Translations under genes and position numbers: made by a program
The notes under the pieces: generated by a model
Databases searched by the model: none
What the model saw: the letters and a program-made list of their open reading frames with translations, nothing else
Told to the model about the DNA's origin: nothing
In this document: positions 2,774 through 44,999 of the stretch, one piece after another
Layout of the letters: each line of letters begins with the position of its first letter
Numbering within the stretch: position 1 is the first letter of the stretch
Assembly: GCA_007556525.1 (NCBI GenBank)
Contig: SWJS01000002.1
Span: 339,380-403,379, forward strand
Direction of reading: 5' to 3'
Origin: Lysobacteraceae bacterium CU05-9
Lineage (GTDB): Bacteria; Pseudomonadota; Gammaproteobacteria; Xanthomonadales; Xanthomonadaceae
DNA length: 64,000 nucleotides

Positions 2774-3471
2774 GCGCGTTCCCTCCGATGAAAGCTGTAC
2801 AAAAGCAGCCAAATGCCGGAAAGCGCCATCAGCAGTGTCGTGATGATCGCAATGCGCAACAGCGGGTGATGCACATCCGTACGATTTTCGTAATCCATGA
2901 TGTGGAACATCCACACGAAATCGAATATCCGCCACAGGGTGTGACGTCGTGCCACGATGTTGCCGCTCGAGGGCGACACGTAGAACGTGGTTCGGCCCAA
3001 GTCATCGAACCGTACCGCCCACAGTGGTACTGGCCGAGTCGAAACTTCCTGCGGTGCCTTGGTGATCCAGTCCGTGGCAGTGACCTCGCCCTTTCCGGTA
3101 TATGCGTCACTTGCAATTCGGGTCGCCATCTCACGGCCTATTGGCGTCAGTAACGTTCCGGATGCGAGGTCGACCACGCCGCTGCGTTCACCCCCGCTGG
3201 CCTTGACCACCGTCCTTCCGTCCAACGTCGAAATTTCGACTTTCTCAGCGCCCGGAAAATGCCGCTTCACCGCATCAAGTCCTTTGGCGCCTCCGGGGAC
3301 GGAGAGCTTGAGCGGGTCCGAGTGCGCATGCTCGAGATGATCCCCGTGGATGATTTCCAGCGGAACGATCGTCATGTACGCACCGCTGATGAACCACAGC
3401 AGTGCTTGAACGCCCACGATCAGTGCGAACCATTTGTGTAACGTGCGGGCAACGATGGATTTATTTGCCAT
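2770..3471 (-). CDS. PepSY-associated transmembrane protein
   Basis: A 233-residue protein with a first membrane helix at about residues 13-32, a periplasmic PepSY-like segment, and a second helix at about 205-227. It ends in a short basic tail. The motif FDFVWMFHIMDYENR before the last helix is shared with the next protein (FDLAWMFHIMDYANR), so the two are paralogous in their membrane parts. Stop and next start overlap by four bases. PepSY helper proteins accompany TonB-dependent receptors and periplasmic metal reductases; a role as partner of the downstream reductase is inferred from the operon. Confidence 0.75.
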   Translation of the reverse strand: MANKSIVARTLHKWFALIVGVQALLWFISGAYMTIVPLEIIHGDHLEHAHSDPLKLSVPGGAKGLDAVKRHFPGAEKVEISTLDGRTVVKASGGERSGVVDLASGTLLTPIGREMATRIASDAYTGKGEVTATDWITKAPQEVSTRPVPLWAVRFDDLGRTTFYVSPSSGNIVARRHTLWRIFDFVWMFHIMDYENRTDVHHPLLRIAIITTLLMALSGIWLLLYSFHRRERA

Positions 3472-3527
3472 ATCCTACTCTCGACAAGTATCGGGAGGGC
3501 CGCGGTAAGGCAGCCCTCCCATCGTAC

Positions 3528-6257
3528 TCAGAAACGGTAATTCAACGAAACATACCAGCGGCGTCCCATGAGGTCATACGTCATGGTGTCCGTATTGCCA
3601 TCCGTGTAGCTTTGGATGTACGGCGCCTTTTTGTCGAATAGATTGTCGACGCCGAACGCGTAATCAACCCGGTTCGTGGGAGAGAACTTCACTTGCGCGT
3701 TGTGATACGCCAACGCAGGCGCGTGATCCCCGATGTCACCGGGCGATGCATTGATATCGTCAGCGCTTCCGATGAACTGAACGCCATAAGTGAACGCCCA
3801 GGGGCGACGCTTGAGCGTCAACGATGAGTAACTTCTCAGCTGCGTGTAGCTGCCGCGTCCTCCGGTGATCTTGCCCGCATATTCAATCGTATCGGCGCCG
3901 TCGAAAGGCGTGACGTCATAGCGGAGCAAACGAGAGATATCGAAGTTCAGCACCGAAGTCCACGATCCAATCTTCCGCTCGTAAATACCACCGATGTCAA
4001 TGCCTGCCACACGTTCGGTCGCTGCGTTCACAGGCTGGGAAGAAAGGAAATCCACTTCGCCGGTCAACTTATTGCGCGTAAAGCTGGTTGGCTCGCAGAA
4101 CTGATGTTTCATGTCCGGCGTGTTGTAGCAGATCGCCAGCTTCGTCGATCCCGCAATGCGCTGGATGGCGTTATCGATGCGGATGTTGAAGTAGTCACCC
4201 GTAAACGTAAATCCCGGAATGAACTTCGGTGTCCAGACAAAACCGACCGTCGACGACGTTGAATCCTCCGGCTCGAGGTTCGGATTGCCGCCGGTCGTCG
4301 TGAGAATGGTGTTGCCCAGTTGCCGGTAGTTCAATGGCAGACCGGACTTCTGGCAGTTCTGGTACACAACGGAACTGCTTGGCTTCAAGTTCCAGTTGTT
4401 ACATGGATCGGTTGTCGTGAGATTGCCTTCCGAGACGCCACCAAACAGCTCCGGAATGTTCGGAACGCGGAAACCGGTCGAGTGGTTTGCGCGAATCTTG
4501 AACGCGTCAACGATCTGCCAGTCCAGCCCAATTTTGTAGTTCGTATCGTTGCCGAAGAGGTCATAACTGGAGTAACGCAACGCGGCGTTCAAGGTCATTG
4601 ATTTCGCGATCACGCTGTCACGAAGAATCGGCAGGGAAATTTCCGTAAAGACTTCCTTTGCCGTATACGCACCTTCAATCCGGTCATTTTGGTTGGTGTT
4701 CGCAATCCCGGCAACCGTCAACGCATCCGGATATCGCCAGCCTTTCTCGCGCCGAATCTCAACGCCCGTCGCAACGCCAATGTCGCCGGCATACCAGGTG
4801 CCCAGACGTCCACCAATGTTCGCCGTAAAACTCTGCTGCTCATTGCCGCCATGATCACGGGTATCAAACAGGATGTAATCGAGAACGCGCGCGGTGACAT
4901 CGCCGTAGCCAAGATAGTCCGCGCAAGGGATTGCCGCATTGATCGCCCACGAGCAACGTGAAGTATCGAGCGTTGCGTCGACACGGTCCAGGTTCGCAAC
5001 GCGGGTTGAACCGTCGATGCCAGTGTTGCGTCCCCAGTTCAGCGCCGCCGTCCAATCCCAGCGGTCATTGATCCTTCCATCTGCACCGACCACGGCACGG
5101 AAGGTATTGGTTTTCTGGAAAAATGTACGTGGACCCGCCTCTTCAAGCCGACGGCGTTGCAGCAACAGGTCCTGACCCGTTGGGTTAGTTGGATGGGACG
5201 CGGAATAATTCATTGGACGGTAGACGCCAAGTGCGCCCGGCGTTGCAAGCTGCGTTGACTCACGCCGCGTGTACATCAACTCGGTGAACAGGCGTGTCGT
5301 TTCAGACAACTTGCGGTCACCGAAAACAGCGAGCGATGCACGCTGGATCGGATTGACAGCGTTCAACGTCTTGTTGCCGTTGTAATTATGCTTCGCGGGG
5401 GAATAGGTCTCGTAGAAATTTCCGTCGCCGCCCAAGGTCTGGTTGAAGTTGATTCGGCGCCCGTCTGCCAGTACAGCCCGCCCACCGACAGTGGTGGAAC
5501 TTCCCGAACACACGAGCTCGCCGTTGGATTCCACCAACCCGCATGGCGCGCGGCTGGCAAGGTTGATCGATCCCGACTTGGACATATCCAGTGCAATCAT
5601 CAGCGAACCGCTGTCGCCGGCTGCGCCATAAGTCGCATTCACCGCGGCATCCATGCCATCTCCGCGCGTGGTTTCGCCGTAGCGGATACCGGCTTCGACG
5701 CCGTCGAAACCCTGCTTGGTGATGATGTTAACGACGCCCGCAACCGCGTCAGCGCCGTAGATTGCGGATGCGCCATCCTTGAGGACTTCGATGCGGTCAA
5801 TCAGCCCAACCGGAATCGTGTTGAGGTCGACCGAGCTGTTCGCACCGGTGCCCCCGCTGACGACGCGTCGGCCGTTCAAAAGAACCAGTGTCCGGTTTGC
5901 TCCCAATCCGCGCAAGTTCACCTGCGTTGTGCCGTAACCGTTGTCTGCCCAGTAGGCGTTGCCCTGGTTGCCTGCGTAGCCGGCAGATGCGGGCAGCCGT
6001 TGCAAAAGTGATTCGGTCGACGTCGCACCACTGGCCTTAATCGCATCTGCGTTGATGACAGTCACCGGACCAACGCCGGAAATCTGCTTGCCGCGCAGGT
6101 ACGAACCGGTCACAACGACCTTGAATTTCGCCTTCGGTGCTTCTTCCTTGTCAGAGCTGGCATTCGCCTCGCTGCTTTGCGCCACAGCATGCGAAGAAAA
6201 TGACACCGCCATGGCGACCATACACGCATTGAACAATGCAGTTCTCTTAATTTTCAC
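3528..6257 (-). CDS. TonB-dependent outer-membrane receptor
   Basis: A 909-residue receptor of the large type common in Xanthomonadales. I place the start at the GTG at 6257, because GGAGAG lies five bases upstream and the protein then opens with a standard signal peptide ending near AVAQ. The longer frame to 6299 lacks this. The TonB box region (VVVTGSYL) is followed by a plug domain with the motif LRGLGANRTLVLLNGRR. The rest is a beta-barrel ending in an aromatic C-terminal residue (NYRF). It lies 56 bp upstream of the PepSY gene and downstream of the copL-like gene, suggesting import of a metal complex. The ligand cannot be read from sequence. Confidence 0.88.
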   Translation of the reverse strand: MKIKRTALFNACMVAMAVSFSSHAVAQSSEANASSDKEEAPKAKFKVVVTGSYLRGKQISGVGPVTVINADAIKASGATSTESLLQRLPASAGYAGNQGNAYWADNGYGTTQVNLRGLGANRTLVLLNGRRVVSGGTGANSSVDLNTIPVGLIDRIEVLKDGASAIYGADAVAGVVNIITKQGFDGVEAGIRYGETTRGDGMDAAVNATYGAAGDSGSLMIALDMSKSGSINLASRAPCGLVESNGELVCSGSSTTVGGRAVLADGRRINFNQTLGGDGNFYETYSPAKHNYNGNKTLNAVNPIQRASLAVFGDRKLSETTRLFTELMYTRRESTQLATPGALGVYRPMNYSASHPTNPTGQDLLLQRRRLEEAGPRTFFQKTNTFRAVVGADGRINDRWDWTAALNWGRNTGIDGSTRVANLDRVDATLDTSRCSWAINAAIPCADYLGYGDVTARVLDYILFDTRDHGGNEQQSFTANIGGRLGTWYAGDIGVATGVEIRREKGWRYPDALTVAGIANTNQNDRIEGAYTAKEVFTEISLPILRDSVIAKSMTLNAALRYSSYDLFGNDTNYKIGLDWQIVDAFKIRANHSTGFRVPNIPELFGGVSEGNLTTTDPCNNWNLKPSSSVVYQNCQKSGLPLNYRQLGNTILTTTGGNPNLEPEDSTSSTVGFVWTPKFIPGFTFTGDYFNIRIDNAIQRIAGSTKLAICYNTPDMKHQFCEPTSFTRNKLTGEVDFLSSQPVNAATERVAGIDIGGIYERKIGSWTSVLNFDISRLLRYDVTPFDGADTIEYAGKITGGRGSYTQLRSYSSLTLKRRPWAFTYGVQFIGSADDINASPGDIGDHAPALAYHNAQVKFSPTNRVDYAFGVDNLFDKKAPYIQSYTDGNTDTMTYDLMGRRWYVSLNYRF

Positions 6258-6341
6258 GTTTACTCTCCAACGCCAACGTCTGCCGGCGCTAATCATCAAT
6301 GATCAAAAATAGGAGCAACAACCGAAGGTTGTGCTTGAACG

Positions 6342-6803
6342 TCAGGAGAGCGAGGTGATGGGTGGCCTGAACGGCGGCTTCCAGTCCCCGGAAGCGAGAT
6401 TGATATGCAGGCTACGCACCGGTACGACCGTGTCGAACTCCACCGACAGCCCTACCGCGTGGAAGTCGTTCGCGACCAGTACGATGCTGATGGCGCAACC
6501 GCAACGGTCGCCCTGGCAAGCGCAATCGTCATGGGCGGAATCCTCATCGCCACCGTCACGTTGCGCGCGGTCCGCTTGCGATTCCTTGCAAGGAGCACCT
6601 GTCCTCGAAGCGGAGTGGTTGGATGTGCTGTCATGCGATGCCACTGCATGCGCATGAGAGGCATTCGACCTGGCGGTATCAGGGTCGACTTGATGCATGG
6701 AAGACTGAATGTGGGCCATGTCAATTGGCATCGCGAAGCCCGCACTTTCAAGAAGAAAGACAGCGACAACGAACAGCCACAATTTGAAACTACCAACTGA
6801 CAC
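6342..6803 (-). CDS. CopL-like metal-binding leader protein
   Basis: A 153-residue exported protein: an N-terminal hydrophobic segment, then a region rich in His, Met, Asp and Ser, a cysteine cluster (DDCACQGDRCGC), and a C-terminus KPPFRPPI close to the RPPIG ending of CopL proteins. In Xanthomonas, CopL precedes copA and is needed for copper-induced expression. Here it precedes the TonB-receptor operon that ends in copA, so copper control of the whole operon is likely. Start is uncertain: the GTG at 6803 opens the frame, with no strong ribosome-binding site. Similarity to CopL rests on layout and tail motif rather than on an alignment. Confidence 0.6.
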   Translation of the reverse strand: MSVGSFKLWLFVVAVFLLESAGFAMPIDMAHIQSSMHQVDPDTARSNASHAHAVASHDSTSNHSASRTGAPCKESQADRAQRDGGDEDSAHDDCACQGDRCGCAISIVLVANDFHAVGLSVEFDTVVPVRSLHINLASGDWKPPFRPPITSLS

Positions 6804-7090
6804 TCGTAAACGAACTCGCTAGAGGTTTACAAATAGAAAGCCACGGTTCATCTCAGTTGTCAACTGTTCAGTTATCACAACGCAACCTACAGCCCAAAAA
6901 GAGAAAGCCACGCGGCCGTAAGGCTTTGTGGCTTTCTTGCGTCGGGTAGAGACGTCACATTCGGAAATATCGGTCTTTACCTTCGTGCTCGCTTGTTGAG
7001 TTTAGATTAGCGCCGCGAGCGTTACTGCCGGGTCAAATCCGGATGCAGATTACGTAAACCCTGATGTCCGTCAGCATGTGTTCATCTAAC
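6804..7090. other. Leader/intergenic region upstream of the copL-like gene
   Basis: No gene is seen between the copL-like gene and the csbD terminator. The stretch holds a 13-bp dyad CAGTTGTCAACTG at 6854-6866, which could be an operator, and the terminator-like hairpin at 6896-6937. The operon promoter must lie in this stretch but I could not fix a convincing -35/-10 pair. Confidence 0.5.
6896..6937 (-). terminator. Terminator-like hairpin ahead of the copper operon
   Basis: Arms AGAAAGCCAC (6902-6911) and GTGGCTTTCT (6928-6937) form a perfect 10-bp stem. On the minus strand the stem is followed by five T (6896-6900). It lies about 95 bp upstream of the copL-like gene and reads towards it, so it is either the end of an unseen transcript or a premature terminator in the operon leader. 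Confidence 0.55.
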
Positions 7091-7116
7091 AAAAAAGCCA
7101 CCCTCATTTGGGTGGC
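7091..7116 (-). terminator. Intrinsic terminator of csbD
   Basis: Stem GCCACCC/GGGTGGC (7097-7103 and 7110-7116) followed on the minus strand by six T (7091-7096). It starts 30 bp after the csbD stop codon. Confidence 0.85.
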
Positions 7117-7145
7117 CTTTCCGCGAGAGCAACGCGGTGGTTTGA

Positions 7146-7346
7146 TCAATCGCAATCTTTCGATGCTTTATCAATTGCCTTCTCGGTCGCTTCAACCGCG
7201 TCGCCGTACTTGCGTTCTGCCTTGCCTGCGAGTTCCTTGGCGAGACCCTTGGCTTCTTGCGAGTGATTGTCGCTCAGATCGCCGAATTCCTTCTGGATCT
7301 TACCTGCGACTTCCTTAGCTGCACCGGTGACTTGATTCTTATTCAT
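7146..7346 (-). CDS. CsbD family stress protein
   Basis: A 66-residue hydrophilic protein that matches the CsbD family throughout: the opening Met-Asn-Lys-Asn-Gln-Val-x-Gly-x-Ala-Lys-Glu pattern and repeated A-G-K segments with alternating charge. CsbD-like proteins are small, poorly structured general-stress proteins of unknown molecular action. A good ribosome-binding site (GGAGAG) lies six bases upstream of the ATG, and a strong terminator follows. It appears to be a single-gene transcript. Confidence 0.9.
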   Translation of the reverse strand: MNKNQVTGAAKEVAGKIQKEFGDLSDNHSQEAKGLAKELAGKAERKYGDAVEATEKAIDKASKDCD

Positions 7347-7486
7347 GATTTCTCTCCTGCAAAAAATTGTTATTGATCTTGCAGTTCCACCTTAGAGAAA
7401 TTCCAGTTATGGTCACATCAACGCGATGTCGATTTGACGTTATCGCAAAGTTCCGATTCAGGAATTTCATGACGACGTGAAAAAAA

Positions 7487-7845
7487 CGGAGCCGGCCGAT
7501 AAGCCGGGTTCTGTCGTGGGCAATCATTCCTCTAGGCGCAACGTCGCCGTTACGCTCAAGCAACCTACCCGGTGACGCCTGCGGGCCGCAGTTAATGTCA
7601 CCCTATTTGGTCTTGCTCCCGGTGGGGTTTGCCGTGCCGGTCCGTTACCGGACTCGCGGTGCGCTCTTACCGCACCATTTCACCCTTGCCGTTCCGCTTG
7701 GGCGGACTTAGGCGGTATCTTTCTGTTGCACTTTCCGTCGGCTTACGCCGCCCAGGCGTTACCTGGCACCGTGCCCTGTGGAGCCCGGACTTTCCTCGGC
7801 AGATTCACTTGCGATCCTCTGACGCGATTGCCTGGCCGACTCCGT
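7487..7845 (-). ncRNA. rnpB: RNase P RNA (A type)
   Basis: The catalytic RNA of RNase P, which matures tRNA 5' ends. On the minus strand the 5' end GAGTCGGCC pairs with the 3' end GGCCGGCTC to form helix P1. The conserved core GAGGAAAGTCCGGGCTCC lies near 7783-7800 and the 3' core ACCCGGCTTATCGG near 7494-7511. The pairing end is followed by six T (7481-7486), a natural terminator. Length of about 359 nt is typical. The ends are accurate to a few bases. Apparent open frames across it are spurious. Confidence 0.95.
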
Positions 7846-22378: not shown

Positions 22379-22380
22379 TT

Positions 22381-22414
22381 GAAATCTGAAATCTGAAATC
22401 TGAAATCTGAAATC
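22381..22414 (+). repeat. Heptamer tandem repeat, left array
   Basis: Four full copies of GAAATCT plus GAAATC, starting two bases after the lacI-type stop codon. The same heptamer in opposite orientation forms the right array at 22852-22905, so the two arrays bracket the four-helix-bundle gene as inverted tandem repeats. Confidence 0.95.
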
Positions 22415-22851: not shown

Positions 22852-22905
22852 GATTTCAGATTTCAGATTTCAGATTTCAGATTTCAGATTTCAGATTTCA
22901 GATTT
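22852..22905 (+). repeat. Heptamer tandem repeat, right array
   Basis: Seven full copies of GATTTCA plus GATTT. GATTTCA is the reverse complement of the left-array unit in another phase, so the arrays face each other across the four-helix-bundle gene. The whole unit 22381-22905 is 525 bp. Confidence 0.95.
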
Positions 22906-31001: not shown

Positions 31002-32791
31002 TCAACGGAATGCCGCCAATCGTAGAGCATTGGTGATGACGGATACTGACGACAACGACATCGCGAGTGCTGCGATCATCGGTGAAAGCAGCAAGCCGAA
31101 CACCGGATACAGCACTCCTGCAGCGACTGGAACGCCGAGGGCGTTGTACAAAAATGCAAACGACAGATTTTGTTTCATGTTGCGCTGAGTGCGTAACGCG
31201 ATGTCGCGTGCGGTTGCGATGCGTCGGAGGTCGCCCTTGATCAACGTGACTTGTGCAGAGGACATTGCGACGTCGGTGCCCGTGCCCATCGCGATGCCAA
31301 CGTCGGCGGCAGCGAGTGCTGGCGCATCGTTGATGCCATCGCCGACCATTGCGACGCGGTGACCTTGAGATTGCAATGAACGAACGAGATCGACTTTGGC
31401 GGAAGGCCTCATCGCACTTCGACGGTCGTATCCTTGATTTTGTCGGCGACGATCAATGCGCCTGCAAACGAATCATCCACCGACACATACAACGCAGTGG
31501 CACCCGAAGCGAGTTCCGACGCGACATCAACAGAAGAAACGTCACCAACGAACGAAGCATTGCCAACTGACACGCGATGACCGTCAACGATGCCACGCAC
31601 ACCTTGACCTGTGACCGATTCAAACGAAGACACTGGCAACAACAGCGACGAATTAGCCGCGAACAAAGCTGCCGCATACGGATGCTCACTGCCCTGCTCC
31701 AGCGATGCAGCATAACGAAGCAACTCCGCTTCTGAAATGGAAACTGGCACGGCACGAACGAAGGAAGGACGGCCTTCGGTTAAGGTGCCTGTTTTGTCGA
31801 CGACTAACGTATCCACTAACGACAACGCCTCAATCGCCGCGGCATCCTTAAACAAAACACCCGCCCTCGCCGCCGACCCTGTCGCCACCATCACCGACAT
31901 CGGCGCGCGCGAACGTTGCGCAGCTGCAACCAACGAAACGATCTGTGACAAAACAGACGCCGCACCGACCGCAGACGCCCGCATCACAAACGAACCCGTC
32001 GTGTTCATCGATCCTCCAATCACAGCATCACCAACATCACGCGACACCGGCAACGACTCACCCGTCAACATCGACTCATCGATTGACGACGCACCCGAGA
32101 CGACAACACCATCGACAGGCACGCGCTCACCAGGACGCACACGCAATTCATTACCAACGATGACGTCGCTCAAGGGAACGTCTTTCTCTACGCCATCGGA
32201 AGAAACTAACCGCGCCGTTGTCGGTTGCAAGCCGAGCAATGCACGCAGGGCCGATCCAGTTTTGGAACGGGCACGCAATTCGAGCATCTGCCCAAGCAAC
32301 GTCAACGAAATGATCATCACCGCCTCTTCGAAATAAACATTGACGCGACCATGCGTCACGAAGGACGCCGGGAACACATCAGGCGCCACCGTCGCAACGA
32401 TGCTATACAAAAACGCCGCAATCACACCCGTCCCAATCAGCGTGAACATGTTGGGGTTGCGAGTTTGGATGGAGCCAAACCAACGCTGCAGGAATGGCCA
32501 CCCCGCCCACAACACAACCGGCGTCGCAAGCAGCAACTCGACCCACGATCTCATCGACGCACTCCAAGACGGCACGACGTAATCGCCAAACATCGCGAGC
32601 ACGAACACGGCCAACGTCAGCGGCAATGACCACCAGAAGCGTCGGCTGAAATCGATCAGTTCCGGATTTTCTTCCTCATCCGCCGACGGCATTTCCGGCT
32701 CAAGCGCCATTCCACAAATCGGACACGTACCGGGATGATCCTGCCGAATGTCCGGATCCATCGGACAGATGTACATCGTGCCCGCGGGCAT
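31002..32791 (-). pseudogene. Copper-translocating P1B-type ATPase, broken by two internal deletions
   Basis: Homologous to Cu(I)-exporting ATPases of the YHS type. It opens with a CPMDPDI...CPICGM metal motif and has the TGES actuator motif and the [11 protein letters not shown] phosphorylation motif. Near 31899 the protein jumps from AAQRSRAP to MSVMVATG, so about 70 residues are missing in frame, including two membrane helices and the CPC ion-binding motif. Near 31410 it jumps from KDTTVEV to [10 protein letters not shown], losing about 38 residues with the TGDN motif and shifting frame. The remainder ([20 protein letters not shown] and the last helices) continues in another frame to 31002. 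Transport activity is not expected. Confidence 0.85.
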
Positions 32792-33111: not shown

Positions 33112-33197
33112 GAATTCGAGAAAAAAATCAAAATAACCATTTATTTGTACAAAATTTTGTATTTTTTTTAAGTTATTTGAGATTATTTCTCGAATTC
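33112..33197. repeat. 86-bp imperfect palindrome at the end of rloB
   Basis: GAATTCGAGAAA (33112-33123) and TTTCTCGAATTC (33186-33197) are perfect 12-bp arms. The exact centre is the 14-bp palindrome TACAAAATTTTGTA (33148-33161), and the stretch between is partly symmetric (AAAATAAC/GTTATTT). The right arm encodes the last residues of RloB. Confidence 0.8.
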
Positions 33198-33695
33198 GAA
33201 CAATTTCAGCAATGCGTCGAGGTAAGCAAATCTCTCCCTCGAGTCAATAATGTCAGCTATCAGAATCTGGCTTCCATAAAGCGTTGGGTCTTGCGCTTCG
33301 CAGCCGAAGGTACTCCTAAACGTTCGCTTGCAGTCTTTAGTGTTTTTCCCCGCAGCCGAAACTCCGACGATGCCCAACAATAACGCCTCAAAGCATGGCT
33401 CACTTAACACGACCTCAATTCCTGCTTTTCGGGCTATTGTCGCTTGTCGGTCATCCCAATCTGTGTCGGAGTCGACCAAGACTGCTTTCAGGTCGTAGTT
33501 TCCACTAAGCCGAACGGCGCGATCAATGACATGCGCTGCACCCTTTCCATTGGCATTTCGTATCGTTACCTGAGGACCACGCCTTTCCCGCGTCAGCGAT
33601 CTTTTTAAATACGAAAGAAAATTTTCCTCGGCTTTCCCCTCCGCGACCACCAGAAGGGTAGTTCGAATTTCCCTGGTATTACGCTTTCGACTCAT
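33183..33695 (-). CDS. RloB-domain protein
   Basis: A 170-residue protein with a Toprim-like opening (LLVVAEGKAEENFLSYLKRSL) and an acidic motif AVLVDSDTDWDD near residue 95, which fit the RloB family. RloB proteins are encoded beside AAA ATPases in restriction and anti-phage loci, and their role is probably nucleolytic. Its start overlaps the ATPase stop by four bases (ATGA). The last codons lie inside the 86-bp palindrome. Confidence 0.78.
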   Translation of the reverse strand: MSRKRNTREIRTTLLVVAEGKAEENFLSYLKRSLTRERRGPQVTIRNANGKGAAHVIDRAVRLSGNYDLKAVLVDSDTDWDDRQATIARKAGIEVVLSEPCFEALLLGIVGVSAAGKNTKDCKRTFRSTFGCEAQDPTLYGSQILIADIIDSRERFAYLDALLKLFEFEK

Positions 33696-34897
33696 AACTG
33701 CGGCACAGCTCCTAATGCGCCGCTTTCGTATTTAGCCCTTAAGTTATCATCCGCCCTTAAGCCGGTGATGTCGTCTCCCCGAACGGCAATACTTTCGTTA
33801 TCAACCTTCTCGATAAAGTAAGCATGAAATCTCTCGAAGTGATCGAGCAATATGGATGCGTGTGTGGAAAAAATTAGCTGCGCGCCGAAAGCATTGAGCT
33901 TTGAGTCATCGAACATACTTGCAAGATTCAATGCAAGCTCCGGATGCAGCTCTGAATCCAACTCGTCGATCACGGCAACTGCGCCTTGTTCCAATGCGTA
34001 TATTAGCTTTCTAATCAAATGAAATGCCGCGCGCGTACCACCGGACTCTTCATCAAACGGAATCAATCCAATGATTCCCTCGTCCGTTTCGTGGACACCG
34101 AGCAATCGATAACGAGCGGACACGTTTCCTGCGTTGGGAATTTCTTCGACACGAATGTCTTTAATGCCAACATCCCACTTACGGACCTCTGAGATAATCT
34201 GTTCGCGCAGCTTCTCATTCTTGCCGAACTGGTTGATATCGCTGATTTCAGCAAGTCGCCTAGTTATTAAGTTGTCACGCAAATCAGAGTTGGCGGAGGG
34301 AAGATTTGAAATCAAATCGAATGGTAGGACGGCTCGCGCTTCGTCAACGCCAAATTGACGAGCAGCAGAGAGAAACGAAACGTTGGGTCTAATATGCCTA
34401 GCCTCCCGAGAAGGGAAACCAAAGCCCTGTTGCTTCACCTTGTACGATGAAGTCGACTTGTCGAAGTCACGAATGAATACATAGCGGAATCGCTGACTTC
34501 TGCGGTACAACGCTTCATGCATAACCATCTTTGGAGTCAAAGATAATTCGTAGCGCCATAGCTCGCCGTTCGAATCCTCCATAAGAATCTCGAATTCGGA
34601 TACCGCATCAGTCGGACTCGCAAAATGTTGATTTAGCGGTATCAACTCGTCCGGCTCCAGATCCGAAAAAGAATCTTTGGTAAACCATTCGAGAAATTGC
34701 AGCGCTTTGAGAATCGCAGTCTTGCCGGAACCGTTCGCACCAAACAACGATGTAGCAGTCGCGATAAGAACATCATCCGCACGAGACCTTCGAACCCATT
34801 TACGTGATTTCATGGCTTTCGACCGCGGGACCTCGAAAGAGATCGTTGACTCCTCGAAAAAACTTTGAAAGTTCGAAACGGAGAAATAGTGCAGCAT
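33692..34897 (-). CDS. AAA ATPase, RloA-like (AAA_15/AAA_21)
   Basis: A 401-residue ABC-like ATPase of the OLD/RloA group. Walker A is FGANGSGKT near residue 53, the signature ESGGTR is near 287, Walker B is VAVIDELDSELHPE near 313, and the H loop is STHAS near 346. The C-terminus (AKYESGALGAVP) matches the family ending. Paired with RloB, it resembles in layout the two-gene PARIS system (AAA_15 + Toprim DUF4435), although the partner here is RloB. Base composition is richer in A+T than in neighbours, pointing to transfer. A dyad at 34936-34953 lies just upstream. Confidence 0.85.
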   Translation of the reverse strand: MLHYFSVSNFQSFFEESTISFEVPRSKAMKSRKWVRRSRADDVLIATATSLFGANGSGKTAILKALQFLEWFTKDSFSDLEPDELIPLNQHFASPTDAVSEFEILMEDSNGELWRYELSLTPKMVMHEALYRRSQRFRYVFIRDFDKSTSSYKVKQQGFGFPSREARHIRPNVSFLSAARQFGVDEARAVLPFDLISNLPSANSDLRDNLITRRLAEISDINQFGKNEKLREQIISEVRKWDVGIKDIRVEEIPNAGNVSARYRLLGVHETDEGIIGLIPFDEESGGTRAAFHLIRKLIYALEQGAVAVIDELDSELHPELALNLASMFDDSKLNAFGAQLIFSTHASILLDHFERFHAYFIEKVDNESIAVRGDDITGLRADDNLRAKYESGALGAVPQL

Positions 34898-37515: not shown

Positions 37516-40083
37516 TTGAAAAAATCAAAATTAGATTCAAATAGGAGCGCTCTGCGTTTAGCAGACCGTAGGGGCAAATTCGCTCTGATCAAGACAATCG
37601 AGCAACTCAGGGCATCCGCTAGCAAAAACGCATACGCGACGCTCTTGCGAGACTCTCGCATCTTCGCACCTCGAAACGGACATGAGCTAAGTAGGGTTGG
37701 GTACAAGCATCTCCATGATCTGGACGGCATAGCTCCTACAACCCTGAGCCTCGAACTTAACGATCAAATAGTTTGGGCAGTAGCTGTAATCTCGAAATTT
37801 GCTCGAGAAATCAGTGAGCACAGAAGAATGGCCCTACAAGTGCAGGATGCCATCTTGGATTCGGACTTCGAATTGGCAGATGACATTGCTGAGGAACACA
37901 TTTCTAAGTTTGGTTGGCAGTACTGGAATTTAGAGCTGTCAATTTGCACCTTGCAATGGCTAAGTAAGGGGGCCACGCAACCTAGGACGAAGGAATTAGA
38001 AAAAAACAAGGACAATGGATTGCTCGGATTCTTGATTCGGTCTTTTGCAAATAGAGCAGATCCAGGTACAAATTTTGAGCGGTTCCTTTCTATTCATTCG
38101 AATGCATTAAATTTCCGAAATAAGGGAGTCTCTTGGTTTTCACCTTTCTTGTCCTACAAGATTCTCGGAAAAATCGCAGATCCGTCTCACGCAGCGATAC
38201 TACTGGAGCGTGAATGGACATCGTCTGTCATTGATTTGTATGAGCTTTTGATAGAACTACTGAAGAACTCCGTAAGCGAGAGATCGATATCGATGGATCG
38301 GTCAACTTGCATAGATGCGGTATCCCGTCTTACGAAATTGGGCATTGATGATTATCGACTTGAAAAACTATTGATGCACATATCAAGCGATACCGCTGTC
38401 GCGAGTGCAGTCGATCACTGCGTAGGGAGTATAGAATCTCTCACAAATCAATTCAGCAGCGACATGTGCCCGGGGATTGATTTCAAACTAACCTGGTCAG
38501 AGAATATTCAAGACGTATTGCGTGATGTCAGACAGGTAGCCGCACATGGCACGTCTGCGGTTCAAGCTGCGGACAGAGCGCTGAAGTGGGCAATAAACCA
38601 TAGATGTTTAGATGCGGGAAATGCGGTAGCGGGAGCTGTCGCGTTTTTTAGTTCGCCGTTAACAATTGATAGCGAACGATGTCTTGAGTTAGCTCTAGCG
38701 TCGCCTGGGCTCGGACCGTGGGATGTGATGTTCCTGTTTGTTACGGCTGATTCCAATGCGATACCTACAATTACTTTCACTCCTAGCGATCTGTTGTTTA
38801 ACGAAAGTTCGGATGTTATACACGTGCTCTCAAGCTGCGTTGGACTGTTAAGATCAGGAGAACCGACTCAAACACAACGACTGATTGAAGCCCTCGAAGA
38901 ATGCAATGATTTTCAACGTCTATGCCTTAAGTTGTCGATATCTAACGCAATCTACAACGACTCACTGTCTAGCGCACTTTCAAGCTGTGTAACTTCAATC
39001 GCGAATGATTCTTCAATCGCCACTGAGCTCCCCATTGCCAAGCTTATCGAAGCACCGATTAAAGCATTGACTGCAAATCGCGATGATACATTGAGCGCAG
39101 CGATAATCTCGCACGTTTCCTATGTGCTAAACCCTACTGACAGCATTGCATTTAAATGCAAACTAGCGTGCAGTAAGATTTCAAATATACTCGCGGCAGA
39201 TATCACGAAGATAAGATCTCATTTCCCGGCTACTAATCCGGAGATATTGTGTGCACTTCTTAGAGATGTATGGACGGAGGAGAACTTTGCGTTCATTCCG
39301 TCGCTCAAATCTGAGGAGGATTGCGCAGCTGAGCGACTGAGAGCGCTCGCCGTCCTTCGCGACTTAGATCCAGTAAATGATGACGCGTATGTTGATGAAA
39401 TCAAATCCGTAACAATGCTACAAAACGTCAGAAGCCGGCTTCAACAGCTCGACCAAACCCGAGTCTATGTTAACGAAATTTCAATTGCCCGATGGGCAGA
39501 GCGAGAACTTACTTCCGACTTTACACAATGGCACCAGTCTCTTGATTTCTCGCACAGCATTGAGAATGTTGCCGAAACTATTCAACGCGTCGTGCACGGC
39601 CAGGGCAATGACAATCACGAAGAGTCTCAGCCCGTCAATGGCGATTCATCGGCGCTACGACTGCTAGATTTCATGAATCTCGTCCACGATAGATTTCTAT
39701 CGGCACCTGGAGATGGACTTGATAGTTATTTAAGTTTACGTGTGCGACACGGCAGTCTGGAAGGTGTCATCTTAAGTCCGGTGCTCTCACTTAATATCGC
39801 AAAATGCGTAAGTCATGAAAGTGTGCTTGAGAACTTTCGGACGATAACTACCATTGACATTGACTCTGTACAAACTGACGAGATTATGGAGGTCGTCGAC
39901 TGCTGGTCGACGCTTCTCTCTGCGCTGAAAGATAAGATTGCGTTCGTAAACAGTGAAAAAATACAAGTTCGAACCACCGAGAAGCCTCTCGGCGAAATTC
40001 GATCCCGCCCCCCCCTACCAAAGCGCTCGTCTTTTGACCGAATTACTCGCGGGCAAAGAAGTGGAGTTGAGCTCTCTGATTGA
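37516..40083 (+). CDS. Detocs-type sensor, DtcA N-terminal part (unrecognised helical protein)
   Basis: An 855-residue, mostly alpha-helical, Leu/Ser-rich protein without a membrane segment or a recognised domain. Its place before a kinase domain, a lone receiver and a receiver-nucleosidase is that of the sensor part of DtcA in Detocs defence systems, where helical repeats precede a histidine kinase. The frame opens with TTG at 37516 just after an in-frame stop, so the start is uncertain. At 40007-40014 it crosses a run of eight C. With seven C the reading would run straight into the kinase frame (40083 would not be a stop), giving one protein of about 1,112 residues. Confidence 0.7.
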   Translation: MKKSKLDSNRSALRLADRRGKFALIKTIEQLRASASKNAYATLLRDSRIFAPRNGHELSRVGYKHLHDLDGIAPTTLSLELNDQIVWAVAVISKFAREISEHRRMALQVQDAILDSDFELADDIAEEHISKFGWQYWNLELSICTLQWLSKGATQPRTKELEKNKDNGLLGFLIRSFANRADPGTNFERFLSIHSNALNFRNKGVSWFSPFLSYKILGKIADPSHAAILLEREWTSSVIDLYELLIELLKNSVSERSISMDRSTCIDAVSRLTKLGIDDYRLEKLLMHISSDTAVASAVDHCVGSIESLTNQFSSDMCPGIDFKLTWSENIQDVLRDVRQVAAHGTSAVQAADRALKWAINHRCLDAGNAVAGAVAFFSSPLTIDSERCLELALASPGLGPWDVMFLFVTADSNAIPTITFTPSDLLFNESSDVIHVLSSCVGLLRSGEPTQTQRLIEALEECNDFQRLCLKLSISNAIYNDSLSSALSSCVTSIANDSSIATELPIAKLIEAPIKALTANRDDTLSAAIISHVSYVLNPTDSIAFKCKLACSKISNILAADITKIRSHFPATNPEILCALLRDVWTEENFAFIPSLKSEEDCAAERLRALAVLRDLDPVNDDAYVDEIKSVTMLQNVRSRLQQLDQTRVYVNEISIARWAERELTSDFTQWHQSLDFSHSIENVAETIQRVVHGQGNDNHEESQPVNGDSSALRLLDFMNLVHDRFLSAPGDGLDSYLSLRVRHGSLEGVILSPVLSLNIAKCVSHESVLENFRTITTIDIDSVQTDEIMEVVDCWSTLLSALKDKIAFVNSEKIQVRTTEKPLGEIRSRPPLPKRSSFDRITRGQRSGVELSD

Positions 40084-40855
40084 AATCTGGATTCGCTTCT
40101 TTTGGATTCTTGCCCAGAGTGACCTAAAGCGTATATCGGAGTTTATCCGTTCCGAATTAAAGGAACAGTTGATAGCTGAGGTGGAGCGAGCGAAGCAACG
40201 TTTGTCGAACAGGACGAGTCGCTTCGTGTCCGTGGTATTGACCGATCTAACCCTGAGTGCCACGTCACTTCAGCATACATGTGAGAGCGTTGCTGATTGG
40301 TTTAATACAACTTCTTCCGCAATCACTGATCATGTCCACCTTTCAGAGGCGATAGAGATCGCTATACAGTCAATTAAAAACGTTTACCCTCAGTTTCACA
40401 TCAAGGTAAAAGTAGATTTTGATTTGGAGACAAACCCCAGCCTTGGATTCTCTGCACTCAACTGGTTGCGCGATGCTCTTTTTATCATGCTCGAGAACGC
40501 TATAAAGCATTCGGGAACTGTCAGCACCGAACGAGAAATCGAACTTAGTATCTCCAATTACGAGGACGGCCACGTAACACTTACAGTATCAAACTCACTC
40601 GAATTCGGACGTGTTGCGGAAATTCAGAATATAGGTTTAGATGTTATTCGAAAGAAATTGATACTTGAAGATAATAAGGATTTGATTGGAAGTGAGGGTG
40701 GGTCTGGGCTAACCAAGCTGGCATGGCTATCCACCGGTCTGTCAGGCACATATGTTGGTGAATCGGTCTCCATAGATGTCGTAGGATCTACGTGGAATAC
40801 GACAGCTAGAATTCCTGTACTTGCCGACGACTTGGGATGGTTGGAGAATAAATGA
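39953..40855 (+). CDS. Histidine-kinase ATPase domain, DtcA C-terminal part
   Basis: A 300-residue frame ending in a GHKL ATPase domain: N box ALFIMLENAIKHSG near residue 182 and G box GSEGGSGLTKL near 243. The candidate phosphoacceptor is His in SLQHTCESVADWF near 105. It overlaps the preceding frame by 131 bp and its GTG start has no ribosome-binding site, so it is more likely the C-terminal part of the same protein, separated by the C8 run at 40007-40014. Its stop overlaps the next ATG (ATGA). Confidence 0.75.
   Translation: MKKYKFEPPRSLSAKFDPAPPYQSARLLTELLAGKEVELSSLIEIWIRFFWILAQSDLKRISEFIRSELKEQLIAEVERAKQRLSNRTSRFVSVVLTDLTLSATSLQHTCESVADWFNTTSSAITDHVHLSEAIEIAIQSIKNVYPQFHIKVKVDFDLETNPSLGFSALNWLRDALFIMLENAIKHSGTVSTEREIELSISNYEDGHVTLTVSNSLEFGRVAEIQNIGLDVIRKKLILEDNKDLIGSEGGSGLTKLAWLSTGLSGTYVGESVSIDVVGSTWNTTARIPVLADDLGWLENK
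40007..40014 (+). other. Run of eight C at the junction of the two dtcA frames
   Basis: The sequence GATCCCG-C8-TACC lies in the overlap of the sensor and kinase frames. Loss of one C fuses them into a single frame (R-P-P-Y-Q-S-A-R-L-L). Such runs slip in replication, transcription or translation, and are also common sequencing errors. Confidence 0.8.
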
Positions 40856-41307
40856 GAATATTACTCGTTGAGGATGACGATTACAAAAGCCAATCGATAT
40901 TAGAGTTCTTGGCGGAGACATTTGGTACCAAGATAGATGTCGTTCTGACAACTTCTGTACATGACGCTATAAGCGCACTTCTCGAGACGCATTATGATTT
41001 AGCGATAGTTGATATGTCCTTGCCTTCCTATTCAAATGCTGGCAGTCGCCCATTGGGGTTCGGCGGCGCTGATATACTTCGCTACGTTTCGTTTTTAGGA
41101 TCCTCAACACCGTGCGTGGTACTCACGCAGTATGAAGAGTTTCAGACCTCTGATGGACTCGAGCTAGAGAATCTCGCTGCATTGAAGGCGCGTTTAATGC
41201 TCGAATTGGATTCCGTGCTAATGGATGTCGTGCACTATTCTGCAACTGCGGACGATTGGCGGCACGAATTGGGACTTCAAATCGAAAAATACCTGAGGCC
41301 ACGATAG
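40852..41307 (+). CDS. Stand-alone receiver domain, DtcB-like
   Basis: A 151-residue receiver domain with no output domain. Acidic pocket EDDD near residue 7, phosphoacceptor Asp in LAIVDMSLP near 58, and the Thr in VVLTQYEE near 93. In Detocs the lone receiver DtcB drains phosphate from the kinase to prevent accidental activation; that role is inferred here from gene order. Overlaps the kinase stop by four bases and its TAG directly abuts the next ATG. Confidence 0.83.
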   Translation: MRILLVEDDDYKSQSILEFLAETFGTKIDVVLTTSVHDAISALLETHYDLAIVDMSLPSYSNAGSRPLGFGGADILRYVSFLGSSTPCVVLTQYEEFQTSDGLELENLAALKARLMLELDSVLMDVVHYSATADDWRHELGLQIEKYLRPR

Positions 41308-42495
41308 ATGAAAATATTAGTAGTCGACGACGACTCTAGCAAACTCGAAATTATTAGGAATGTGGTAAATGCAAGTCTCGACTCGGTGCAAATCGACCAC
41401 AGCGCCACGGCGTTTGATGCATTATCTGCGATAGCCCACAATCGTTACGATTTGCTCCTTTTAGACATATTGTTGCCATGGCGCGAGAACAATCCTCCTG
41501 AAGCTAAGTCCAGCTTTCAACTCTTATCGTACGTAAATGAGCTTCATCCGCAAAATTGGCCGGGCTCGATATTGGGAATCACTGCCGAGGCGGAATCGAA
41601 GGAATCAAATTCAATTGCTTTTGAAAATTTTGGTGTAGCGATATGGGTCGTGAACAGCGTCGAATCAAAATGGAAAGAGCAGCTTAGAAATCTCCTCCAA
41701 GTCTTGAAGTACTCGGCGTCTACTAAATCAACGATCGAACAAATTCACTGCTGCGTGATCAATGCACTCGATATCGAGGCTCAAGGCGTAGCTTGTGCAT
41801 GGAGTTCTGCGTTTGGAAGCTGGACTTTGTTTGGAGGCATTGGCCGAGTTAGGAATGCAATTTACAAAGATATATCAATCGCTAACGTCACGCTGGACCG
41901 TATGGGTCCGGTATGCGCATCCCTTGCGACGCAGCTCGCTGTTTCGCAACTGAATCCGTCGATTTTGCTGATGACCGGTATTTGCGGCGGCATCTCTGGA
42001 GAATGCGACTTGGGGGACGTTGTAGTAGCACAGACGTCCTGGGAGTGGCAGACAGGAAAATGGGACAAACATGGACAGTTCAGGTCCGCGCCAGAGCAGG
42101 AGCGCGTACATCCACGTTTACTATTAGCAGCCAAGAATATCAACGAAGTTCAACTTGCTGGATTCTGGGCTTCGTTTAAGGGACTAAAGCCACCCAACGC
42201 ACCGCGATTACATTTTGCTCCGATGGCATCAGGTAGTTCCGTCGTGGCCGCCGATGGAATGACTCAGATTATTCGGCAACAACATCGGAAGGTCATCGGA
42301 ATAGACATGGAATCAAGCGGATTTTATTTTGCGGCTAGATCTTCAGGCGGCGCAATAACTCCGGCTCTATGCGTGAAAGCTGTTTCAGATCTAGCAGATG
42401 CGAGTAAGTCAGATATTTATCATCAATATTGTAGTGAATTGAGTGCCTTTATCGCGTCCTTGATCTGTGATGAGTATTTTTCTGACCCGTCCTAG
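41308..42495 (+). CDS. Receiver fused to nucleoside phosphorylase-like domain, DtcC-like effector
   Basis: A 395-residue fusion. Residues 1-130 are a receiver (VVDDDSSKLEII, phosphoacceptor in LLLLDILLP near 53). Residues 145-390 are a PNP/MTA-SAH-nucleosidase fold with MTGICGGISG near 223, the IGIDMESSGFYFAA segment near 330 and the catalytic SDLAD near 362. In Detocs the DtcC nucleosidase cleaves ATP to adenine and ribose triphosphate once phosphorylated and so stops phage growth. The receiver-PNP fusion behind a kinase and a lone receiver is diagnostic. It ends 12 bp from the convergent DUF2075 gene. Confidence 0.88.
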   Translation: MKILVVDDDSSKLEIIRNVVNASLDSVQIDHSATAFDALSAIAHNRYDLLLLDILLPWRENNPPEAKSSFQLLSYVNELHPQNWPGSILGITAEAESKESNSIAFENFGVAIWVVNSVESKWKEQLRNLLQVLKYSASTKSTIEQIHCCVINALDIEAQGVACAWSSAFGSWTLFGGIGRVRNAIYKDISIANVTLDRMGPVCASLATQLAVSQLNPSILLMTGICGGISGECDLGDVVVAQTSWEWQTGKWDKHGQFRSAPEQERVHPRLLLAAKNINEVQLAGFWASFKGLKPPNAPRLHFAPMASGSSVVAADGMTQIIRQQHRKVIGIDMESSGFYFAARSSGGAITPALCVKAVSDLADASKSDIYHQYCSELSAFIASLICDEYFSDPS

Positions 42496-42507: not shown

Positions 42508-44535
42508 CTACAAAGTCAGGATACCGACACCCTTTAGAAGTGAATATACACCGTCATAATATCTCGATTGCCTAGACGAATCTTTATCGCTTCCGGTTGG
42601 GACAACAATAACCATGCCTTGGCGCGCGCGTGTAAGCAAAACGCGATAGGCATTCAACTGATAACGACGACGCTCTTCGGCATTGATGCGCTGCCATTTC
42701 GCCCCTTTGAATTCGTGATGCGACCACTTGCCATTATCAATTCGCAAGTCACCGTCCCACACGACGCAAGCCCAATCAAGCTCTAAGCCCTGCACTACAA
42801 ATTCAGTTGCCGCGTCTTCCAGAAAATTGCTTGACCGGACGTCATCGCCAGGATGCAGGAACCAGTGAACTGGATCTATCTGCGGACGGACATCAATTGC
42901 TAGTGGCTTCAATCGCTGAGCCTTGGAAGAAACCACCATTCCATATCGTTCCGTGCCTCGCGCTTGTTCCTTAATCCATTTCTTTGCGGCATCTAAGTCA
43001 CGCGTCAAAACGATGGGATAATTGGCGTAAATCTGTTTGAGTTGATCCCGTGCAGCATCGAGTTCGAGATCCAAAACCAGCTTGACGAAATTACTTAGGT
43101 TTTCTGCTCTAAAAGAACGCATCGAAGTCGATAAATGGAGACTCTCGTCCGCGAATATTCTCTCCTGTAAATACTTCAAGTCAGAACGCAATCGAGCATC
43201 ATTTTCATCGTTCAAAATATTCGGCGAAATGTGTACATCCCAATGTGGAAACGATTGACGAATCGCTGTCGTCCACTCGGACACGCCACCTTCGCCCTTA
43301 TTAATTTCTTGACCTTCACCGATTAGGCAAACAACAACGGCCCAGTCATCATGCCGATCCATACATGAAATAAGAAATTCTGGCTCTGACATATCGAAAT
43401 CTTGAATACCTTTCTTGGTTTTCATAAATGTCGATGTTTGAGATTTGTTCCATGCACGTTGGGCTTCGTCGAATAGTGCAACATGGTCAGCTGGCGGACC
43501 GTTATCGACCAGACCTTCGTCTCGAAAGTGATGAACAATTTGAATGAAGGCTTTGACGGCACTCTTCGCCTGACCCTTCAACAGCCTCTCGCCAGATTCC
43601 TTCGCGCGAGTTACCTTGTCGACGGCAAGAGCTTCGGTGAGAACAGCTACTAGAGGGCCATTGCCAGAAAGAAACACACTGTGTTGTTTCGACTCGGCAT
43701 CTGAGTTCTTTGTCGCGACATCCAGACCAACTAGAGTTTTTCCTGCGCCAGGAACTCCTGTGATGAAGATAATCGCCTTCCGATTCTTCTCACGTGCATC
43801 GAGGATAATTTGATTGACCGTGTTCGATGTGATTTGAAGGTTAATTGCGCCAGCGTCACTTCGTGAAATATCTTCTACCCCATGACCCGCATAGAGTGCC
43901 TTTGCGGCTTCGACGATCGTCGGTGTCGGCGAGTAACGACCTAGCTCCCACGCATCTAGATTAAGGCGGTCATTCTGAAAGTGTTTACTAGCCTCGATAA
44001 TCACATCAAGAATCTGCGATGGCGCGGCACGAACAGGACGCGTTAGATTGTCACCATGACTTGTTCCGTAAATTCGAATTTGCTGAGGCTCACCGTTCGT
44101 CGCGACCAGAATTGGAACAATTGCAGCATCATGGCTTGTGCTGTGAAAATTAAGAAGATCTAGAGCGTAATCCCATACCTGATCTACGGCATATTTGGAA
44201 AAATCACTCTCGCCCGTCTTGAACTCAATGACAAAAAGAATGTTGTCGATTACGACGACATTATCAATTCGCTTACCTAATCGCGGAACGACAAACTCAA
44301 AGAATATGCGGTCATCTTGACTCGACCAGCCAGCAAATGTTTCTTTCAGAATCCTTATTTGCTGACGCCAAGCTTCAATGTCCAGCTGCGTTACAGAGTT
44401 CAAACGCGCAGCGAGCCTTCCTATGATCGAATTCTCATCAGCAGCCAGAAACTGAGGAAGCGTGGCGCCATAAAAATAGCGTCGAGATTCAAATGCTGCA
44501 GCATTCTCGCTGTAAGAAAGATCGTTGCTCGACAT
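42508..44535 (-). CDS. Nuclease-like domain plus DUF2075 P-loop ATPase
   Basis: A 675-residue protein. The N-terminal region has a PD-(D/E)xK-like core: RIDNVVVIDNILFVIEFKTGES near residues 90-111. A P-loop follows (FITGVPGAGKT near 258), with Walker B-like VALFDEAQRAW near 333, and the helicase-like C-terminus YRVLLTRARQGMVIVV near 640. This is the DUF2075 arrangement, related to schlafen- and UvrD-like ATPases. Such proteins turn up in defence islands, but no tested system of exactly this type comes to mind. A+T-rich like the adjacent Detocs operon, with which it is convergent. Confidence 0.78.
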   Translation of the reverse strand: MSSNDLSYSENAAAFESRRYFYGATLPQFLAADENSIIGRLAARLNSVTQLDIEAWRQQIRILKETFAGWSSQDDRIFFEFVVPRLGKRIDNVVVIDNILFVIEFKTGESDFSKYAVDQVWDYALDLLNFHSTSHDAAIVPILVATNGEPQQIRIYGTSHGDNLTRPVRAAPSQILDVIIEASKHFQNDRLNLDAWELGRYSPTPTIVEAAKALYAGHGVEDISRSDAGAINLQITSNTVNQIILDAREKNRKAIIFITGVPGAGKTLVGLDVATKNSDAESKQHSVFLSGNGPLVAVLTEALAVDKVTRAKESGERLLKGQAKSAVKAFIQIVHHFRDEGLVDNGPPADHVALFDEAQRAWNKSQTSTFMKTKKGIQDFDMSEPEFLISCMDRHDDWAVVVCLIGEGQEINKGEGGVSEWTTAIRQSFPHWDVHISPNILNDENDARLRSDLKYLQERIFADESLHLSTSMRSFRAENLSNFVKLVLDLELDAARDQLKQIYANYPIVLTRDLDAAKKWIKEQARGTERYGMVVSSKAQRLKPLAIDVRPQIDPVHWFLHPGDDVRSSNFLEDAATEFVVQGLELDWACVVWDGDLRIDNGKWSHHEFKGAKWQRINAEERRRYQLNAYRVLLTRARQGMVIVVPTGSDKDSSRQSRYYDGVYSLLKGVGILTL

Positions 44536-44618
44536 CGCTCACCCAAAGTACTGAGCTTCCAGGATACTCGGTCAGAAGGATAAAGTCCGTGTGAGATCAC
44601 GGCGTGCTGTTGAATCCC

Positions 44619-44999
44619 ATGAAAAGGTCGTTAGAAACAGACTTAGAGTCGCGACATGCCTTATGTTTGCATGCGCGGGGATTTCGCTTCAGGAAAAATG
44701 TGCGGGGCATGCCGGGCACTCCGGACATCGTGTTGCCTAAGTATGGCGCGGTGGTTGAGGTGAGAGGGTGTTTTTGGCATCGGCATGAGGCGGCGAGGTG
44801 CAGGATTGCGACGGTGCCCGCAAGTAATGTTGAATTTTGGGCGGAGAAGTTTGCGCGCAACGTCGAGCGGGATCGCAGGAATGCCGCCAAGTTGCGGCGG
44901 CAAGGGTGGCGCGTGCTGGTCGTGTGGGAATGCGACGTGCGCAAGGACATCGACAAGGTCGCGGATCGGCTGGAGCGGTTGTTGGGCGCAGCCGGGTAA
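44619..44999 (+). CDS. vsr: Very short patch repair endonuclease, N-terminally shortened
   Basis: A 126-residue Vsr-like endonuclease, which nicks at T:G mismatches next to Dcm-type sites. Conserved parts: LHARGFRFRKNVRGMPGTPDIVLPKY with the catalytic Asp, VVEVRGCFWHRHE with Cys and His of the zinc site, and VLVVWECDVRKD. The usual N-terminal 20 or so residues that bind DNA are absent; the ATG at 44619 (or a GTG at 44604) starts directly before the T-x-x-E-L-like segment. No cytosine methylase gene is nearby. Probably a decayed relic of a restriction-modification locus. Confidence 0.78.
   Translation: MKRSLETDLESRHALCLHARGFRFRKNVRGMPGTPDIVLPKYGAVVEVRGCFWHRHEAARCRIATVPASNVEFWAEKFARNVERDRRNAAKLRRQGWRVLVVWECDVRKDIDKVADRLERLLGAAG

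Follow-up and report, generated by a model that had tools for sequence, protein, structure and literature searches.

A run of eight cytosines where the two frames of a Detocs-type dtcA gene meet

Introduction

A defense that kills or starves its host on firing is costly, and how such systems are shed or switched is an open question. Detocs (defensive two-component system), a phage-defense system of this kind, was reportedly first described by Rousset and others in Cell in 2023. It is presented in PMC11728103 as consisting of the kinase DtcA, the phosphate buffer DtcB and the response regulator DtcC, and PMC11249213 refers to its purine-nucleoside-phosphorylase (PNP) effector as cleaving ATP.

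Here we ask why the kinase gene of a Detocs-type operon in Lysobacteraceae bacterium CU05-9 lies in two overlapping frames that meet at a run of eight cytosines (C8). The DNA analysed is a stretch of 64,000 nucleotides (contig SWJS01000002.1, positions 339,380 to 403,379), hereafter the window. An otherwise undecayed Detocs operon whose trigger gene is put out of frame at a C/G run presents a simple and testable case.

Results

The operon is encoded on the forward (+) strand. The first dtcA open reading frame (ORF), frame 1 (37516..40083, 855 aa), carries a helical-repeat sensor region and an invariant RHG histidine, H745; its TTG start comes from a mechanical ORF call and is putative. Frame 2 (39953..40855, 300 aa, GTG start) carries a histidine-kinase core comprising helices and an ATP-binding lobe. 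The ATG of dtcB (40852..41307), a stand-alone receiver domain, overlaps the stop codon of frame 2 in the motif ATGA, and dtcC (41308..42495) joins a receiver to a PNP-type effector. Both dtcB and dtcC matched their PADLOC family profiles nearly end to end (PDC-M60B at 6.2e-36 and PDC-M60C at 5e-75, respectively), with an additional match of dtcC to PNP_UDP_1 at 1.1e-16. In the Pfam search, the dtcB receiver fell just below the cut-off, dtcC returned both its receiver and PNP_UDP_1, and no domain was found in either dtcA half. All 31 columns that are invariant among 10 DtcC proteins are kept in the DtcC of the window. From the matching parts, we infer that the PDC-M60 family of PADLOC is Detocs. 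The locus thus resembles Detocs in its gene order (sensor-kinase, receiver, receiver-PNP), its receiver-only DtcB, its receiver-PNP DtcC and both halves of DtcA, the sensor region and the histidine-kinase core. It differs in that these halves occupy separate frames meeting at C8, whereas 69 of 75 relatives have DtcA as one ORF. Judged by its genes, the locus is Detocs, although as sequenced it would not be an intact system.

Profile comparisons show the two frames to be, at the level of sequence, halves of one family protein that hand over at C8. Against a profile of 69 intact DtcA proteins, frame 1 matched positions 8-874 (328 bits) and frame 2 matched positions 884-1114 (131 bits), and against PDC-M60A (PDLC04723, 1161 positions) the ranges were 376-881 and 895-1121. 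In the profile alignment, the last aligned residue of frame 1 is 826 and the first of frame 2 is 24, which delimits a hand-over zone of 28 nt (39994..40021, +) with C8 in its middle; the frame 2 ORF does not follow the reading frame of the family protein until about residue 19. BLASTP comparison with three relatives (L019, L020 and L022) was concordant with this picture, and in codon preference the shift out of frame 1 into frame 2 fell at about 39980-40040, a noisy signal trained on the operon itself. The chance that a random run falls wholly inside the zone is about 1e-4 given two C/G runs of at least 8 per 460 kb, and about 7e-4 when all 15 long runs are counted. These profiles support an earlier sequence-only reading of this DNA, which had identified the gene as dtcA, treated its two frames as a single split protein and named C8 as the switch point.

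That reading had placed the run at 40007-40014; direct reading of the window sequence puts it at 40008-40015, so the run at the frame switch stands but its coordinates move one base rightward. The 131 bp overlap that it described between 37516-40083 and 39953-40855 is borne out by the ORF list, and its arithmetic, in which one base fewer gives a single protein of 1,112 residues, fits the three closest single-ORF DtcA proteins (1,120, 1,122 and 1,122 aa). C8 falls at codon 831 of about 1,112; the frame 1 product stops 65 bases beyond it, and neither dtcA frame contains any further stop. We also confirmed the claim that the second frame lacks a ribosome-binding site: with an anti-Shine-Dalgarno (anti-SD) sequence entered by hand, the duplex energy at GTG 39953 is +0.4 kcal/mol. 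The corresponding values are -7.2 kcal/mol for dtcB and -5.6 kcal/mol for dtcC, and 290 mechanical ORFs of at least 200 aa on the same contig have quartiles of -5.7, -3.1 and -1.4 kcal/mol.

We compared 75 dtc loci, comprising 64 from genomes and 11 from plasmids (L008-L018). The genome loci were taken from 80 kept of 127, leaving out 16 in which the match covered part of DtcC only (L075, L076, L082, L085 and L087-L098). One long DtcA ORF was found in 69 of the 75 loci, and in none of the 75 was the gene split near the position of the window break. A single ORF of at least 900 aa lies just upstream of DtcC in 68 loci, and L061 makes the sixty-ninth. The 69 intact ORFs represent 66 distinct proteins, three of which (L042, L067 and L079) run off the 5' end of their contigs. 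L004, outside the 75, has a single DtcA ORF of 881 aa. L061 (Sphingobium sp. Leaf26) has a buffer-effector fusion, with DtcB and DtcC encoded in a single ORF of 589 aa (5952-7721). The seemingly truncated dtcA of Sphingobium RC1 (L011) proved to be an annotation effect, the actual ORF having 1,157 aa.

As for the other six loci, dtcA is cut by contig ends in L023, L077 and L080. An rve-type transposase gene interrupts it near residue 345 in L021 (Acinetobacter variabilis, 1363-6020), and IS21-type genes replace it before an orphan dtcC in L041 (Agrobacterium larrymoorei FPH-AR2, 3771-6501), indicating through these transposase genes that DtcA loss also happens elsewhere. In L016 (Arcobacter, about 5044-5049), a run is T6 where the near-identical L017 and L018 have T7, and the dtcA frame is broken near residue 630. 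The breaks in L021 and L016 lie at other places than that in the window.

These relatives are distant: identity is 25-27% in DtcC and, for DtcA compared with L022, 26% in frame 1 and 29% in frame 2. Scanning genome contigs with DtcA frame 1 revealed no close relative, the genus-level search returned only this genome, and at class level 3 of 369 genomes gave a match to the family, one being its own and one of the other two weak. Viral contigs scanned with frame 2 and DtcC gave no match, nor did blastn of the operon against plasmids. The query system occurred in 1 of 5,426 E. coli genomes, and the Klebsiella copies were identical across the operon in all three records.

The structural comparison used 44 of the 69 intact DtcA proteins. 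In a predicted model of the L019 protein (mean pLDDT 84.6), the junction falls in a loop that separates two helices, one running up to 823 and the other from 842 onward; a kinase-like part follows at about 870-1113, and matches to ATP-binding lobes cover 943-1111 (VIA Z about 12). The best Foldseek match to this model had an E value of 3.3e-3, with none at or below 0.001. Only one histidine is invariant across the 44 relatives; it lies in the RHG motif (H755 in L019), would be the phosphate acceptor and corresponds to H745 in frame 1 of the window; the only other columns with histidine in at least 30% are 541 (15 of 44) and 1005 (26 of 44). The N-box asparagine (N1001 of L019, N182 of frame 2 in the window) is likewise invariant in the 44, and frame 2 also holds the glycine box and the helices ahead of the N-box and glycine box. 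The division into a sensor frame and a kinase frame made by the sequence-only reading consequently holds for the kinase boxes, which lie in frame 2, but the separation is not clean, the invariant histidine being in frame 1. Neither product contains both H745 and N182.

C8 is rare in this genome and sits exactly at the break, and it is no trait of the family. It is the only C/G run of at least 8 in the window. The 460 kb of contig hold one C8 and one G8, against about four C/G runs of at least 8 expected under a first-order model, and the whole genome (2.35 Mb) has such runs at only five places (8 overlapping matches), namely G9 and G10 on contig 1, G8 and the dtcA C8 on contig 8, and C8 on contig 10. 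Among the 69 intact dtcA genes, the longest C/G run was 4 in 31 genes, 5 in 26, 6 in 10 and 7 in 2. A conserved slippery run in the DtcA family was rejected, as C/G runs of at least 8 occur in 0 of 69 and homopolymers are not enriched: synonymous shuffling of 68 genes gave 157 A/T runs observed versus 164 expected, and 14 C/G runs versus 21. Since the relatives are so distant, non-conservation of the tract counts only weakly against a phase-variable locus.

The G9 (L119, 1501-1509) immediately precedes a Sel1-repeat gene whose product has a signal-like start, and the G10 (L121, 1501-1510) immediately precedes a TonB-dependent receptor gene. Both, the longest C/G runs of the genome, are candidate switch sites.

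We also surveyed how homopolymers behave across this assembly. The G8 of contig 8 lies inside an open MFS gene (L124, 425 aa), and the C8 of contig 10 lies inside an open outer-membrane efflux gene (L126, 443 aa). Among the 279 runs of at least 6 in 460 kb, 198 are inside one mechanical ORF, 75 are not wholly in one ORF and 6 are in two-ORF overlaps, a test that is blind to frame breaks leaving no overlap. The dtcA junction accounts for two of these 6; among the remaining four, two overlaps pair ORFs from different families, one involves a complete transporter and the fourth is an A7 (L099, 3030-4156). That most in-gene homopolymers sit in unbroken ORFs argues against a noisy assembly.

A 98-base N gap, with no other N run in the 460 kb, ends directly before the window (contig 8, 339282-339379), indicating that the assembly is scaffolded. 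Elsewhere in the window (31002-32791, -), a copper-type P-type ATPase is found in two ORFs with a 4-base overlap; PF00702 matches at 1-104 in one and 157-191 in the other, with about 50 positions missing, so that this gene looks to have been broken by a deletion and not by a homopolymer.

Discussion

We favor a real and recent change in the length of C8 by replication slippage, which would leave the Detocs-type system off, and give this reading a probability of about 0.6. Slippage would have altered the run and broken the dtcA frame, and ribosomes starting at dtcA would make a protein of 855 residues containing the sensor and the invariant histidine and lacking the kinase core, which would be made in traces or not at all. 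DtcC would then stay unphosphorylated and its ATP-cleaving effector idle. This might be a safe way of losing the system, given that the kinase that fires it would be gone while the buffer DtcB and an idle effector remain. A run such as C8 can slip back, so the off state may be a reversible one. The remainder of the operon, which shows no decay in further stops, in the identity of either frame to L022 or in the family matches of dtcB and dtcC, suggests that the break is either recent or reversible.

The sequence-only reading had left three options for the run: a sequencing error, a recent frameshift that disables the system, or a slippery run that turns it on and off. Our results favor the second and weaken the first, and the third is retained as a tentative possibility. 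A misread run length in an organism whose dtcA is intact is now doubtful. In its favor, homopolymer runs are the classic place for misreads, the remainder of the dtc operon is undecayed, and single-base run differences that put dtcA in two frames do occur among other records. They include the near-identical Arcobacter copies (CP134847) with T6 or T7 and, in a comparison of two Agrobacterium records (L127 and L128) with a third (L129), these three being taken from 14, the strains LBA1190 and LBA1191, which have one and five single-base length differences, respectively. Four of these six differences are in A/T runs of 5-6 or similar within dtcA or dtcC and one is in dtcB; because LBA1191 also differs in its dtcB and dtcC, that record looks like sequencing error. 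The window differs from these records in that their runs are of A or T, are 5-7 bases long and lie elsewhere, and in that intact, near-identical copies of them exist. Against an error stand the open genes around the other two in-gene C/G runs of at least 8 (G8 on contig 8, C8 on contig 10), the 198 of 279 runs lying within one ORF, and the ordinary explanations for three of the four other overlaps. Far less probable still is a natural two-gene form, with a separate kinase gene from 39953. The sequence-only reading had proposed that homologues with two genes and a conserved start near 39953 would make the split natural; we searched for them and found a single ORF in 69 of 75 loci, with the other six not split here and none split near C8, which indicates that there is no natural two-gene arrangement. 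Although an ORF at 39953 exists, its GTG is without a ribosome-binding site and the first ~18 residues of the 300-aa product are out of frame with the family, leaving this form next to no probability.

Slippage at C8, whether ribosomal or transcriptional, or reinitiation at a frame 2 codon could in principle still yield the kinase part, so that a split kinase works in two pieces. An SD-like energy of -6.9 kcal/mol precedes CTG 40076 and ATT 40079, with the frame 1 stop (40081-40083) adjoining, and in the structural model reinitiation at CTG 40076 would retain the long helix and the ATP-binding lobe; translational coupling would also fit the dtcB start inside the frame 2 stop. This good SD-like stretch before CTG 40076 suggests that some kinase core might be made. 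CTG and ATT are, however, poor start codons. Recoding is further opposed by the absence of C8 from the dtcA of relatives, by the lack of any relative split here, and by the RNA after C8, for which a stable stimulatory structure of the kind expected for programmed frameshifting was rejected (z = +0.99, with 170 of 200 shuffles folding at least as well, for folds without pseudoknots). On balance, a working split kinase is improbable. A special form of the real-indel reading, and not exclusive of it, is that C8 is a maintained contingency switch. Under phase variation, subpopulations might conceivably toggle an ATP-cleaving defense by losing and regaining the kinase core, with effector and buffer kept ready. 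C8 is among only five C/G runs of at least 8 in the genome, two of the other four (G9 and G10) precede the gene with a signal-like start and the TonB-dependent receptor gene, and runs in such a setting are known as switches elsewhere. In addition, the dtcA frame depends on a C/G 8-mer and the operon around it is undecayed, and loss of the kinase would presumably be harmless while the rest is kept. A tract length that decides the frame, a feature of contingency loci, is thus present at C8, its instability being putative. Yet the tract is unconserved, with longest C/G runs of 4-7 in the 69 intact dtcA genes and no homopolymer enrichment there; C8 lies three quarters of the way into the gene and not near its start; and mutS and mutL are both present and unbroken, by which hypermutation through their loss was also rejected. 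We regard a maintained switch as a speculative and rather unlikely reading.

A precedent for phase switching is Pgl of Streptomyces coelicolor, which is reported in PMC4365076 to switch at frequencies of 1e-2 to 1e-4 via a G tract in pglX, with a change from 8 to 7 G seen. In both cases, a phage-defense gene contains within its coding region a C/G homopolymer of 8 bases, where changing the length by one base disrupts the frame (PMC4365076). Switching has been measured in Pgl, whereas the window is known from sequence alone, and the genes and mechanism are unrelated. Phase variation of Detocs was absent from the titles and abstract openings covered by a limited literature search. The novelty of the locus would rest on run-length variation. 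Should the run vary in culture, Detocs would join Pgl and restriction systems as a phase-variable defense; should it be fixed, the locus would be another case of sensor-kinase loss beside L021 and L041.

Additional observations

The dtc locus sits among defense-type genes. Upstream, an AbiL-like match (33183-34897, -) combines an AAA ATPase with a RloB-like protein, and downstream are a PDC-S41 match (42508-44535, -), a Schlafen-type helicase, and a match to the Vsr profile (44604-44999, +). The window also contains two arrays of 7-base repeats about 440 bases apart and outside called ORFs, TGAAATC x5 at 22380-22414 and its reverse complement GATTTCA x7.7 at 22852-22905, and more 7-base arrays occur elsewhere on the same contig.
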